This document shows positions 51,767 to 56,080 of a stretch of DNA of 64,000 nt, one piece after another. The notes beneath the pieces were generated by a model, which made no database searches, had not been told where the DNA came from, and saw only the letters and a list, made by a program, of their open reading frames with translations. The stretch is from Anaerococcus sp. Marseille-Q7828 (GTDB lineage: Bacteria; Bacillota; Clostridia; Tissierellales; Peptoniphilaceae): contig NZ_OX458331.1 of assembly GCF_949769285.1 (NCBI RefSeq), positions 1 through 64,000 of the forward strand, read 5' to 3'. The position numbers and the translations under genes are program-made. Position 1 is the first letter of the stretch. Each line of letters starts with the position of its first letter.

Positions 51767-51805
51767 AAGGTTAGCTACATATTTTGTAGACTAACCTTAT
51801 TTTTT
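51767..51805 (+). terminator. Terminator after mnmM
   Basis: AAGGTTAG pairs with CTAACCTT and an inner CTACA/TGTAG extends the stem; six T follow. The stem is also usable for the convergent gene ending at 51804. Confidence 0.88.
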
Positions 51806-52919
51806 AGTCATTTACAACCCTATACTTACCGTCAATCTCTCTAATAACAGATTTCTTAAGTCCAGTATTTATAGTCGAATTTCCCTTTGGTCTATTGATA
51901 TCTTCGTCTATACTTCTTGAAGCTTCCATTTCTCTATCGCTTTTTAGGAAGTAATCATATATTACAAAATCTTCTATATTTTCAACATAGCCATCAGAGA
52001 ATGTTATGGTTGGATCATCCCATGTTGTATCTATGTTAAACCAATATCCATCAATCTTGACCATATTCCAAATATGAGCTTCTCCAGTTTTCTTAGAAAA
52101 ACCAGTCGCATAGCGGACGTCAAGTCCTGCCTTGGTTCCTAGTTTGTCAAATAAAGTCGCATAGGCATTGCAAACGCCACCATTGCCAAATAAGATACTT
52201 GATGGATGGTGGATGGAATATCCTCCGCTCATATCATTACTATCTCCCCTATTGTAAAAGTTCCTTTTTACAATAAAATCGTGGATTTTGAGAGCTTTTT
52301 GATAGTCGCTGTCACTTGAGCTGATATTTTCGCTGACCCATTGGTTGGCAAAATCTTCGACCATTTTCTCTGATTCATTGCCTTCCCTGTAGATTACAGA
52401 ATATGTTGCTGAGTCTACATAAACCTTGCCAGCCTTGGACTTGTTTGGATTGTACTTGGTGGACACATTTGCCTTGTCATACATACTATAGTAAAAATAC
52501 CGGTCTTCTTTGGCAGTTTCCAAGAACCAGTCTGTTAATTGTTTATTATTTGAGTAAGAGTTGACATTTACGACAAATTTTTCATTTCTCTTGTCAAGAT
52601 TTGCCTTGATTTGATTCTTTACCCTTATATTTGTATTGTCCTTTGGTCCGTACTTGCTCTTAAATTCGTATACTTCTTTTAAGATTTCTTCGGATTCGGC
52701 TAGTAGTCTTTGTATCTTGACCCTTGTTTGTCCAGAAACAGTACGCGGGAAATTTTTGAGCAGATATTTCGCTGCCGCAACTTGATATTCTAATGGTGAA
52801 GGATCTAGATTTTCTGCTAGTTCTTCATTTGATATAGCATAGGCATGATTTATATTCATTGAACACCAGCCAAAAGTCATGGCCAGGGATAGGGATAAAG
52901 TTAAAAGCTTTCTTTTCAT
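51804..52919 (-). CDS. Secreted transglutaminase-like protein with N-terminal YPKT-type motif
   Basis: ATG 52919 is chosen, below GAGGAAG; a GTG at 52931 overlaps that site. The 371-residue protein has a signal peptide (residues 1-28, cleavage near NHAYA). Residues about 40-90 carry the motif shared with the next four genes (YQVAAAKYLLKNFPRT...RLLAESEEILKE). Residues about 195-300 are a transglutaminase/protease-like core with the triad Cys in NGGVCNAYATLF, His in EAHIWNMV, and Asp in FNIDTTWDDP. It may cut or crosslink surface proteins, possibly its neighbours; that is inference. It has its own transcript, ending convergently with mnmM. Confidence 0.85.
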   Translation of the reverse strand: MKRKLLTLSLSLAMTFGWCSMNINHAYAISNEELAENLDPSPLEYQVAAAKYLLKNFPRTVSGQTRVKIQRLLAESEEILKEVYEFKSKYGPKDNTNIRVKNQIKANLDKRNEKFVVNVNSYSNNKQLTDWFLETAKEDRYFYYSMYDKANVSTKYNPNKSKAGKVYVDSATYSVIYREGNESEKMVEDFANQWVSENISSSDSDYQKALKIHDFIVKRNFYNRGDSNDMSGGYSIHHPSSILFGNGGVCNAYATLFDKLGTKAGLDVRYATGFSKKTGEAHIWNMVKIDGYWFNIDTTWDDPTITFSDGYVENIEDFVIYDYFLKSDREMEASRSIDEDINRPKGNSTINTGLKKSVIREIDGKYRVVND

Positions 52920-53000
52920 ATACTTCCTCACTAAATTGTTAATTTTACATCATTATATTAAGTATACAATTTTTGTAAGATTTATAAAGGCTTATAAATA

Positions 53001-53022
53001 AAAAATCCCCTTAAAAGGGGAC
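53001..53022 (-). terminator. Terminator of the secreted-protein operon
   Basis: TCCCCTT and AAGGGGA pair on the minus strand and are followed by six T. It lies about 18 bases after the last gene of the four-gene cluster and separates it from the transglutaminase-like gene. Confidence 0.85.
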
Positions 53023-53039
53023 TTTTCACGCTAAATTAA

Positions 53040-53801
53040 TTATTTTTTAAGCTCGCTTAGAACAATTTCAGATTCTTTGATAAGTTCTTTAGATTCTTTA
53101 ATCATTGTTTTTAATTTTTCAGCTACATTTTTCACTGTTTTAGGATAATTTTTTAGTAAGTTTTCTGCAACTTGGATTTGCATTTTATTTTTTTCAATTG
53201 AGTTTTCTAGGTCAATGATACGAGCTTTTCTGTTGCTTTCTTTTACAAAAGTATCAGCTGCATTTTTAAGATTTACGCTAGCTTCCTTTATCTCAGCATC
53301 TGTTGCGTCATCATTATTATAAACATTTAATGCCTTTGCATAAGCCTTACTTAGATTATCATATTCTTTTTGGTTGTATTCGCCTACATCAGACTTATAA
53401 ATAAGGTCTTTAGCTGGGTACATTTGAAGTTTTAGGCTAACTCTTAGTTTTCCTGTTTCTTCTAGTGGATTTGTGGTGTCTTCTATTTGATTTCTAGCTT
53501 CAAATACTTCTTGAGCTGCTGCCTTAAATTGTTCTTCTGTTGTAGACTCATTTTCTAATAATTCTTTTGCATAACCAATGCTTACTCTGTATACGGTTTT
53601 TTCACCATCATTAGCATTTTTGTAGGCATCACTTTCTCTGAAAGTACTATCTTCTCTTACAAATCTGCTTAATGTGTTTTTATAAGTAAGTTCTCCCTGT
53701 GATGCATAGCTTACATTGTCTAAAGAATTGCTAGTAATAGGTCCTAGAAAAGAAAATGATACAGCTAATGCTATAGGCAACACTTTTTTAATATTTTTCA
53801 T
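53040..53801 (-). CDS. Secreted FIVAR-like protein with C-terminal YPKT motif
   Basis: A 253-residue exported protein (signal peptide about 1-33). Two helical modules of FIVAR type follow: about 42-108 (SDAYKNANDGEKTVYRVSIG) and 118-188 (EYDNLSKAYAKALNVYNNDD). Residues 197-250 form the family motif: IQVAENLLKNYPKTVKNVAE with KL-x4-KES after it. No LPXTG or membrane anchor, so the motif may itself bind the cell surface. Last gene of the operon; AAAGGAG at its start. No name known to me. Confidence 0.82.
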   Translation of the reverse strand: MKNIKKVLPIALAVSFSFLGPITSNSLDNVSYASQGELTYKNTLSRFVREDSTFRESDAYKNANDGEKTVYRVSIGYAKELLENESTTEEQFKAAAQEVFEARNQIEDTTNPLEETGKLRVSLKLQMYPAKDLIYKSDVGEYNQKEYDNLSKAYAKALNVYNNDDATDAEIKEASVNLKNAADTFVKESNRKARIIDLENSIEKNKMQIQVAENLLKNYPKTVKNVAEKLKTMIKESKELIKESEIVLSELKK

Positions 53802-53816
53802 TTTATTCTCCTTTTA

Positions 53817-54356
53817 TTATAAAGTTTTTAATAAGGCTTGTGCTTCTTTTACAATGGCATTTGATTCTTCGATCATCTTTAAAAGTTTTGGTCTAACTCT
53901 TTGTACTGTCTTTGGATAATTTTTTAGAAGTGAGTTTACTACTTGTACTTGTAATTGGTTATCACTTATTGCTTTTTCCAAATCTCTTTTTACTTTGATT
54001 TTTTGGGCTATACCTTCTGCTTCCTTGTAGATTGCATTTACTGCATCATTTATCCTCTTTGTCGCTAGCCTTAGATCCTCATATGTGGCATCTTGGCGTG
54101 ATAGTTGAAGTTCTCCATCAGAGATGGCAGCTTCGTATTCACTTTTTAGCCCTTGGCTGGCATAGGAAAAGTAAACTTCAGAATTTACAATCTTTACAGA
54201 AGCATCTACAGCTTTTTGTAGTTCTGCTCTTTGGTTTTCTATAGTATTTACATTTTCTTCAGCAGCATAGGATACGCTGCTTTCATTAAAGCTTGTGGCA
54301 GCTGGTACTAAGATAAGTGCCAAGGCCAAGCTTAGTATTTTGTTTTTTAATTTCAT
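53817..54356 (-). CDS. Small secreted protein with C-terminal YPKT motif
   Basis: A 179-residue exported protein (signal peptide about 1-31, SVSYAA). The middle (about 40-115) is one FIVAR-like three-helix module (AAISDGELQLSRQDATYEDL). Residues 125-178 are the family motif, VQVVNSLLKNYPKTVQRVRP followed by KLLKMIEESNAIVKEAQALL, right at the C-terminus. 15 bases upstream of the next gene of the cluster; ATAGGAG at its start. Confidence 0.82.
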   Translation of the reverse strand: MKLKNKILSLALALILVPAATSFNESSVSYAAEENVNTIENQRAELQKAVDASVKIVNSEVYFSYASQGLKSEYEAAISDGELQLSRQDATYEDLRLATKRINDAVNAIYKEAEGIAQKIKVKRDLEKAISDNQLQVQVVNSLLKNYPKTVQRVRPKLLKMIEESNAIVKEAQALLKTL

Positions 54357-54390
54357 ATTAAACTCCTATCTTAAGTATAGTCTTAGGATA

Positions 54391-55440
54391 TTAGCCTTGA
54401 ACATTTTCAACTTCATCAAGGAATTGTTGGGTTTCTTTTACCAAAGCATCAGATTCTTTTAGTAATTGTTCTAATTTAGGTTTTACACTTTGGATTGTCT
54501 TTGGTTTTGTTTCTAGTAGGTAGCGTAGAGCTTGTGCTTGAATCTTGTGTTCTACTAGAGAATTCCTAAGTTCAACTACTAAAGCCTTTAGCTCCTTATC
54601 TTTTTCGCTATCAACTTTAACTAGTGAATCCTTGGCAGCTTTTAGAGCGTCAAGACTTGTTTGATATTGTTCTTTTGTAGAATTTGTAGAATTTGCTGTA
54701 GTTTGAGCTGCAACTAAAGCTTTTTTAAATACTAGGTAAGATTTTTCAGTATATGAAGCCTTATCAACATTGCCAGCTTCTTTAATTTCTTCTTTGAGAG
54801 CTTCTTTTACTTTGCTAGTACTTTCTACTTCCTCTATAGAAGTACGAGCATCTTTTAATGATTTTAGTGCTTGCTCATATTCTGTTGTTGAAATATTTTC
54901 AAACATACTTAAAGCAGTTTTTGCCATTGAAATAGCTTTTTCATAAGCATTTTGTTGGCTTAAGCTAGCATTCTTGTAGGCATCACTTGCTTTGAAACTA
55001 GCATTTTCATAGAATAAATCTCTAAGTTCCTTAGTATTTACTTCTGTTCCGGTCAAATTATCATAATTATCTAAAACTTCTGACAATTTAGAATTAATTG
55101 TATTAGTTGCTGTATTAAATTCATTGTCAAAAACATAGGATTTAGTATTATCTGGGCTATATTTTTCTATAGTTTTTTCTAGATCGGCAAGACTTCCATC
55201 AAATATATATTTCTTATCCTTATCTGCTTCATTGATGTATTTAACTGATTTTTTTACTTCTTTTAGTTCAGCTAATCTTGCAAGAGCATCTTTATAAGTT
55301 TTCTCATATTTATCTTTGGCTGTCATTGCACTTGTTTGACTTGCATTTGTATCAGCCGCAAATGAAGTTTTTACACTTGGTGTGACTACTGACAATGCAA
55401 GTGCTAAAGCAAGTGCAGGTTTTAATAATTTATTTTTCAT
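54391..55440 (-). CDS. Secreted multi-FIVAR protein with C-terminal YPKT motif
   Basis: Start set at ATG 55440, below AAGGAGAAG, which places the signal peptide MKNKLLKPALALALALSV at the N-terminus; an upstream in-frame start at 55485 lacks a site. The 349-residue protein has an N-terminal helical region, then two FIVAR-like modules (about 145-210, SDAYKNASLSQQNAYEKAIS, and 215-280, SYTEKSYLVFKKALVAAQTT), then the motif (about 287-345, LRYLLETKPKTIQSVKPKLE). The longest member of the cluster. Confidence 0.84.
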   Translation of the reverse strand: MKNKLLKPALALALALSVVTPSVKTSFAADTNASQTSAMTAKDKYEKTYKDALARLAELKEVKKSVKYINEADKDKKYIFDGSLADLEKTIEKYSPDNTKSYVFDNEFNTATNTINSKLSEVLDNYDNLTGTEVNTKELRDLFYENASFKASDAYKNASLSQQNAYEKAISMAKTALSMFENISTTEYEQALKSLKDARTSIEEVESTSKVKEALKEEIKEAGNVDKASYTEKSYLVFKKALVAAQTTANSTNSTKEQYQTSLDALKAAKDSLVKVDSEKDKELKALVVELRNSLVEHKIQAQALRYLLETKPKTIQSVKPKLEQLLKESDALVKETQQFLDEVENVQG

Positions 55441-55516
55441 ATTCTTCTCCTTTTTAATTAAGAGCTTCTTATAATTTGCTAGCATTATACCTTTTGCTAG
55501 CCTAAATGAAAAGCTT

Positions 55517-56002
55517 TTAGTATCTTATCAAATGAGTATATGCTTGTGGTATACGTGGCGGATTTACTTGTAATTTCTCCCCAGTCAAGGAGTAAATCAA
55601 ATCAGCTGCTTGTAATTTTAGTTCGTGAGATTCTATCAAAAGATTGACCAATTTTTCTTCTTTGCCCTTGATAGTTTTTGGATATTTTTCTAGTATTTCT
55701 TCAATAGATTTTACACTTATGTCATTTCTATTAAAAGATTCTTTAAGTTCTGTTATATAGGCTGCTTCTTTTTGAGTTTCTTTTTTGTCTTTAGTTTTGT
55801 CTTCACTTGGCAAAACATCTTTTTCTTTGCTGTCAGATTTTTCAAGACCCGTAAGCTCACTAATTTGATCCATTTGCTCATGAAGTTGATTTAATAGCTT
55901 AAGAGCTTCTGTCTCTGAGGCAAAAGAAGTAGATGGGCTTAATATTGCTAGAGATATGGCACAAGTTCCTACTAGTTTTACTGTATTTTTAAAGTTTTTC
56001 AT
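55517..56002 (-). CDS. Small secreted protein with YPKT motif and C-terminal extension
   Basis: ATG 56002 is used, below AAGGAGCGG; a frame from 56053 is longer. The 161-residue protein has a signal peptide (about 1-28, cleavage at SFASE), a charged Lys/Asp/Glu-rich linker (about 55-80), and the motif at about 82-137 (IEEILEKYPKTIKGKEEKLV). Unlike the other members it has a 24-residue tail after the motif (PPRIPQAYTHLIRY). First gene of the operon, 76 bases upstream of the next. Confidence 0.8.
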   Translation of the reverse strand: MKNFKNTVKLVGTCAISLAILSPSTSFASETEALKLLNQLHEQMDQISELTGLEKSDSKEKDVLPSEDKTKDKKETQKEAAYITELKESFNRNDISVKSIEEILEKYPKTIKGKEEKLVNLLIESHELKLQAADLIYSLTGEKLQVNPPRIPQAYTHLIRY

Positions 56003-56080
56003 AAATTTCCCGCTCCTTAAAATTATATAGATTTCTATTAAAATATTACCCAATATAGTAGCTTTGAAACTTAGAAAGCA

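Follow-up and report, generated by a model that had tools for sequence, protein, structure and literature searches.

An exported helical hairpin module of Anaerococcus and its probable role in surface retention

What might a short segment do that is shared by otherwise different exported proteins? The question is raised by a gene cluster of Anaerococcus sp. Marseille-Q7828, in the first 64,000 nucleotides of contig NZ_OX458331.1 (assembly GCF_949769285.1), the stretch that we analysed and hereafter call the window. Five consecutive open reading frames (ORFs) on its minus strand, at 51804-56053, have exported products (P0001 to P0005), each with one copy of a module of about 55 residues. A first-pass annotation, made from the sequence alone, had suggested a new surface-attachment or mutual-recognition domain. 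We give a probability of roughly 0.5 to the reading that this module keeps exported proteins of Anaerococcus at the cell surface non-covalently, by docking helix to helix, with anchored copies of the same module as its likeliest receptors. Retention at the surface as such seems quite probable, and surface attachment of the module proteins is strongly suggested. Because the module is usually placed where other bacteria have a wall-attachment signal, it is probably an undescribed means of holding proteins at the surface. The first-pass suggestion has good support as a kind of explanation and extends far beyond five genes; the module would then bind the cell or another copy of itself.

The five window copies are clearly related. 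Hidden Markov models (HMMs) built from any four of them recovered the fifth at E-values from 1.5e-8 to 3.1e-19 (Table 1), in agreement with the earlier claim of five adjacent exported-protein genes with one copy apiece. No sixth window ORF of at least 60 amino acids (aa) was found at E <= 1, and a 44-row profile of the module found nothing in the window beyond the same five genes at E <= 10. The residues L, P, T, K, E and S are invariant across the five copies. YPKT, which had been taken to define the motif, is not invariant among 209 distinct copies, in which only the proline is nearly so (96%). A hydrophobic N-terminus is present in all five proteins and an LPXTG tail in none, the latter as previously noted. 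The placements reported for the N-terminal copy of P0001, just behind its signal peptide, and for the copy followed by a short tail of 21 residues (P0005) were correct; the exact C-terminal position claimed for three proteins applies to P0002 and P0003, the copy of P0004 stopping four residues early. The rest of the proteins had been described as FIVAR modules or a protease/crosslinking domain. This is true of P0002 (FIVAR) and P0001 (transglutaminase); P0003 is FIVAR-like by structural model only, the FIVAR match of P0004 falls below the cut-off, and nothing was recognised in P0005.

To see where the module is usually placed, we mapped 201 module ORFs in 23 carrier genomes of the genus, using the stretches around the listed matches (genomes and stretches are cited below by G and L numbers). 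In most genomes the counts, which range from 2 to 26, are minimum figures; match listings were full for 11 genomes, in which some weak rows were still left aside. Measured from the stop, the last module ends at up to 10 aa in 155 ORFs, at 11-25 aa in nine and farther off in 37. Among the 164 ORFs with a C-terminal module (within 25 aa of the stop), whose products range from 97 to 2446 aa, none has a sortase tail by our own pattern of TG box, hydrophobic stretch and basic tail. The other 37 comprise 20 with the module directly behind the signal peptide (10 transglutaminases, 7 5'-nucleotidases and 3 CAP-like proteins), 14 whose module is internal and followed by a NAKTG tail, and three others. 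Two copies are present in 17 of the 201 bearers. Tandem modules right behind the signal peptide were observed in the 5'-nucleotidases of L049, L057, L066, L074, L104, L177 and L258 and in the three CAP-like proteins (L073, L079, L084), two of which are just under the Pfam cut-off and the third alike by eye.

By a crude hydropathy rule, a secretion-type N-terminus is present in 191 of the 199 module ORFs whose start is complete, against 12 of the 42 genes of the window and 149 of 325 ORFs in the neighbourhood; nearly all module proteins look exported. The extreme C-terminal position in most bearers (164/201) might also be expected of a signal for secretion or for a chaperone, recognised in the course of export. 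We find this hardly credible, since the module is N-terminal or internal in 34 of the 201 and ordinary signal peptides are already there.

We asked next how widely the module is distributed. At E <= 0.001 the 44-row profile matched 27 of the 31 genus genomes and 11 of the 99 from elsewhere in the family; removal of four genus genomes with weak matches leaves 23 of 31 as true carriers. The weak matches outside the carriers (the four genus non-carriers and the 11 other family genomes) were rejected, as they cover the model in part and, wherever read, belong to the same protein of 332-333 aa. The matched protein was read in 10 of the 15 genomes (G003, G008, G009 and G024 within the genus; G060, G069, G121, G131, G133 and G141 outside it), the other five being G047, G085, G100, G127 and G138. 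The 332-333-aa protein adjoins a gene taken for DnaC-like in the two stretches examined (L256, L257), and the match of this replication-type, cytoplasmic protein looks like chance. Among the matches read, occurrence in cytoplasmic proteins is limited to this single case, partial and at E of about 1e-4 per genome. In a search of 391 genomes of the class, from 222 genera and with at least 3 genomes of Anaerococcus, strong matches were confined to Anaerococcus, and the three weak matches outside it were again to the 332-aa protein. Phages and plasmids searched with P0003 yielded no match. When 30 of the genomes of the genus were placed on an rpoB tree (G017 was omitted, its gene being split over two contigs), the eight non-carriers were set apart from all others by a branch supported at 100/100, a pattern that suggests one gain or one loss of the module.

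The module does not correspond to a named family in the databases that we searched. Pfam had nothing over cut-off on the module in the five window proteins or in 44 module segments, and no NCBIfam family over cut-off covers it in the five window proteins or in 10 other module proteins. The 44 segments matched 74 Pfam families at E <= 1, and among the best 25 of these were weak coiled-coil-type matches, the best spread of the 25 being DUF948 (10 of 44 segments, best E 5.3e-4); the coiled-coil families were set aside as the identity of the module, none having a match over cut-off. The albumin-binding GA module (PF01468) was likewise rejected: it is not among the best 25 of the 74 families (last single-member row E 0.027), and GA matches fall outside the module in the same proteins. 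A dockerin was rejected in turn, with no Pfam dockerin match in 53 module proteins and a plain hairpin in the structural model. Among solved structures compared by sequence there was no convincing match to the module, the best (E 0.021) being a designed coil, and Foldseek returned nothing at E <= 0.001.

AlphaFold and residue covariation concur on an antiparallel helical hairpin. In the model of mature P0003, from an 8-row alignment (mean predicted local distance difference test score, pLDDT, 91.2; 92-97 across the module, in blocks of ten), a long helix leaves the FIVAR-like bundle, breaks at NYPKT and gives way to a second helix. A model of the P0001 transglutaminase, from two sequences and with a mean pLDDT of 43.8, was not used. 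Across the 209 distinct copies, all 11 of the strongest couplings connect the two helices, A and B, within a band of i+j 54-63 that we chose after viewing the couplings. In 20 column-shuffled controls, which ignore the relatedness of the copies, 0-5 of 11 fell in this band, and four of the real couplings were above every control. Pairs 4-50, 11-43, 8-47 and 22-33 among the 11, and the weaker 15-40, are core-like for an antiparallel coiled coil; 12-51 and 19-44 are polar flanking pairs. Off the hairpin band lie the weaker couplings 36-46, 47-56 and some at i+j about 44. In a heptad register of our own assignment, the 'g' positions (7, 14, 21, 32, 39, 46, 53) have an apolar share of 0.24-1.00 (mean 0.75) and the 'e' positions one of 0.07-0.22. 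The module is predicted to be an antiparallel hairpin with one apolar and one charged side, and the apolar side may be a docking face for further helices. Residues 85-148 of P0003 superimpose on a rubrerythrin half-bundle, syntaxin 10, MIT and Rex1BD (Z 6.3-7.6, root-mean-square deviation 1.6-2.3 Å over 52-64 residues), a likeness that reflects a common arrangement and does not imply homology; the FIVAR-like part is fitted by 2ozn_B and 2jnk.

The apolar lateral face, together with the 17 two-copy bearers, would also suit a plain oligomerisation hairpin that joins secreted proteins into soluble complexes or a biofilm matrix, with no attachment to the cell. We consider this improbable in view of two kinds of bearer that point to the cell, a lipoprotein in 21 of the 23 carriers and another protein with a nearly invariant sortase-type tail. 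The lipoprotein is short, was seen once per genome and never twice, and consists of lipobox, linker and terminal module; the linker has 66-104 aa, of which 26-43% are Asp or Glu, in all 21 cases. (The lipobox pattern had 22 matches, one of them false, to a P0005-type protein of G044.) The second bearer, one protein in each of 14 carriers, combines an internal module with a tail of the form NAKTG-hydrophobic-ASVAYA(A/T)SK(K/R). Its pattern had 20 matches, six of them false (four P0005-type proteins and two transglutaminase ends), and covered G013, G015, G016, G020 and G042 only among the matches listed. We observed that distant Anaerococcus species share this tail, NAKTG..ASVAYAASK, almost without change (L013:2022-3395 and 13 homologues) and that the protein varies in length, from 297 to 651 aa among 13 cases with a complete start.

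The two genes lie within 7 kb of one another in 8 of the 14 genomes and on separate contigs in six. The lipoprotein gene is within 8 kb of genes for the remaining module proteins, which we call clients, in 11 of 21 genomes; in G013, G015, G018 and G041 it heads a cluster like that of the window, which the transglutaminase closes. Because one of each anchored bearer is seen per genome, often adjoining the other or clients, the anchored copies are the simplest receptors to propose, although that the lipoprotein and the wall-linked protein do act as such is an even bet at best. In six stretches read (L013, L055, L338, L339, L340, L088), a third, long sortase-tailed protein is encoded between the two bearer genes. 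It has a FIVAR match over cut-off in L013 and just below it in L088, and is a possible scaffold.

The proteins that carry the module are of diverse kinds. Pfam domains in 53 of them include Peptidase_S8 with FIVAR, pullulanase (PUD, CBM48, alpha-amylase), G5, 5'-nucleotidase and CAP, further PUD, Rib, LTD (lamin-tail) and transglutaminase, and GA in eight proteins; many have no recognised domain. For the module-bearing subtilase the best NCBIfam model is an LPXTG-anchored peptidase family, below cut-off, and the 14 NCBIfam models listed for the 5'-nucleotidase, all below cut-off, include two LPXTG or surface-anchored 5'-nucleotidases. In G023 and G045 the subtilase has the module at its end, and the g33 homologues (G084 and G085, a related genus), 38% identical across some 1950 aa, finish with NAKTG sortase-type tails. 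In the more distant homologues of G101 and G098, the ends read by eye as CWB2 repeats. The GA proteins inspected in carriers also have the module at the end, and as a second case of exchange, judged from sequence, they are only suggestive. A weak GA match of the carrier G021 at 1155-1156 kb was discarded, as its reading frame has no module; L012 had a GA match in one search and none from Pfam. We dropped a comparison of 5'-nucleotidases, as the forms of about 515 aa in G024, G012, G013 and G017 are of another type.

That the module sits in the same place on the same sort of cargo could also be explained by direct binding of a wall polymer or membrane component, as with SLH, CWB2 and ChW, the two anchored bearers being merely further clients. 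The lipoprotein would then perhaps tether membrane to wall, for which its acidic linker has the length; the CWB2-like ends of the G101 and G098 subtilases and a polymer specific to the genus, matching the confinement of the module, would fit as well. We nonetheless regard this explanation as unlikely. The module has no conserved aromatic residue (none exceeds 35% at any column of the 209 distinct copies), no peptidoglycan hydrolase domain was found among the 53 scanned proteins, and a wall-binding module would be superfluous on a protein anchored by sortase. A helical partner suits the apolar side better than a glycan does.

Another possibility is suggested by the transglutaminase of the cluster, which in the window lies beside four module genes and has full homologues in 15 of the 31 genus genomes, all of them carriers (a 16th genome matches through the motif only): the module might be a tag for covalent cross-linking by this enzyme. 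We give this very little credence, as no Lys or Gln is invariant (best columns 51% and 21%, one nearly empty end column excepted) and the enzyme has no match in the carriers G005, G006, G019, G022 and G023.

We therefore return to docking of the module on anchored copies of itself, for which we propose the following course. Module proteins would be exported by Sec and their signal peptide cleaved. The hairpin (helix A, a turn containing the proline, helix B), at the end of the protein or behind the signal peptide, would replace the LPXTG tail of other Gram-positive cocci and would dock non-covalently, helix to helix, on the cell surface. Of its lateral faces, one would be charged and coevolving, and the apolar one would take up further helices; the likeliest receptors would be the same module on the membrane lipoprotein and on the sortase-tailed wall protein. 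More tentatively, Anaerococcus may have swapped much of its sortase anchoring for a self-recognising hairpin plug, the two anchored proteins being hubs that nucleate a helical lattice of up to two dozen enzymes and adhesins.

Several observations weigh against this proposal. The module lipoprotein was not seen in G004 (86% complete) or G017, and no sortase-tailed bearer was present in G004, G017 or G022, for which the low-copy listing is complete; the candidate of G010 is interrupted by a contig end. With a single anchored copy of each kind for as many as 24 clients, receptors would seem scarce, unless the assembly exceeds pairs. An apolar-sided hairpin suits any helical partner, and the heptad register is self-assigned. 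Module and sortase tail are both absent from the subtilases of G012, G013, G015 and the genome to which the window belongs (2119 aa in the last). For the GA proteins, the case for exchange is weakened by G008, in which a run of N splits the GA region from a VQTG tail and the frames differ, and by G046, in which the end of the GA protein is unreadable. If the proposal is true, a single genus has evolved a homotypic counterpart of cohesin-dockerin, and the plug adds a new protein-display system to human-associated anaerobic cocci, about whose surface little has been described. The lack of a recognised anchor in many surface-type proteins of Anaerococcus (albumin binders, some subtilases, the 5'-nucleotidase) would be explained; a single HMM could then predict much of the surface proteome, and the module could provide a small helical tag for surface display.

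The module resembles several known systems in part. Like the LPXTG/sortase signal (PF00746), it is C-terminal and found on similar cargo families, and subtilase homologues bear either; unlike that signal, it is also found N-terminally, and TG box, hydrophobic stretch and basic tail are absent in 164/164. The SLH, CWB2 and ChW repeats are, like the module, short and common to diverse exported proteins (partly after PMC5817068). There is no Pfam match to them on the module, which is mostly single-copy, a helical hairpin and restricted to one genus. In the dockerin-cohesin pair of the cellulosome, and in the FIVAR-dockerin of C. perfringens NagH, enzymes likewise bear a docking module at one end, its partner is anchored, and FIVAR is again a neighbour. 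No dockerin or cohesin match was found in the 53 proteins, and here the anchored protein carries the clients' own module. A dockerin has two Ca-binding segments. The C-terminal domain of Type IX secretion has a different fold from the Anaerococcus module and belongs to a different type of cell. Like the module, it is one C-terminal domain on many unrelated cargoes (PMC4560394). Our literature search found nothing on this module, its absence from print resting on those searches only. It is already known that terminal modules can retain exported proteins at the cell; what is undescribed, as far as the searches reach, is this module family with its hairpin form, its use by clients and anchors alike and its restriction to a single genus in the genomes searched.

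Table 1. Features of the module cluster in the window, and the long protein encoded between the anchored bearers (leave-one-out, HMM built from the other four copies)
Feature	Coordinates	Strand	Evidence or remark
P0001, exported transglutaminase-like protein, module directly behind signal peptide	51804..52931	-	PF01841 E 6.1e-12
Module copy of P0001, N-terminal	52647..52811	-	Leave-one-out E 1.5e-8
Transglutaminase core of P0001 (residues 201-301)	52029..52331	-	Pfam
P0002, exported FIVAR protein with terminal module	53040..53801	-	FIVAR E 7.7e-7
Module copy of P0002, exact C-terminus	53043..53207	-	Leave-one-out E 4.4e-17
P0003, exported, FIVAR-like bundle and C-terminal module	53817..54356	-	AlphaFold model; Pfam none over cut-off
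Module copy of P0003, exact C-terminus	53820..53978	-	Leave-one-out E 3.1e-19
P0004, exported, module near C-terminus	54391..55485	-	FIVAR match below Pfam cut-off
Module copy of P0004, ends 4 residues ahead of stop	54403..54567	-	Leave-one-out E 8.4e-15
P0005, exported, module and 21-aa tail	55517..56053	-	No recognised domain
Module copy of P0005, ends 21 residues ahead of stop	55583..55744	-	Leave-one-out E 1.2e-8
Terminator-like hairpin, P0002/P0001 gap	53007..53019	-	Consensus match only; 5 found vs 2.7 expected in shuffles
Long protein between the anchored bearers, without module	L013:5082-8573	+	632-1201 aa in six stretches; VRTG/VKTG-type sortase tail

A few details of the window genes deserve mention. 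P0004 likely starts at the Met of MKNKLLKP (55440) and P0005 at the ATG at 56002. Cys254, His286 and Asp301, read by eye, form a putative transglutaminase triad in P0001. Because a terminator-like hairpin lies between P0002 and P0001, the genes for P0005 to P0002 and the gene for P0001 may be two separate transcription units. Elsewhere in the same genome, the FIVAR-like 2119-aa subtilase (L248:418-6777) is followed by a gene with a terminal module (L012:848-3661).

A contig of Anaerococcus provencensis has the same cluster, with a P0003 that is 95% identical. Its P0004 (L048:5083-6183) is 93% identical to that of the window in the module and 61% in the remainder, whereas the four neighbouring genes are 94-99% identical outside the module; the N-terminal part of P0004 may be diversifying or recombined. 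The module is not consistently the best-kept part of the window genes in comparisons with A. provencensis and G021, and the reverse holds for P0003 and P0001 against G021. Many P0004-type proteins have a short KG, QG or RG C-terminus behind the module (window 54394-54402), for example those of G000, G002, G011, G013, G015, G016, G018, G020, G021, G041, G042 and G044, and those of G004, G005, G006, G010 and G019 are without it. The tail behind the module of P0005 (window 55520-55582), of the form RIP-x2-Y-x2-LI, is common to G021 and G044 and looser in G018 and G043.

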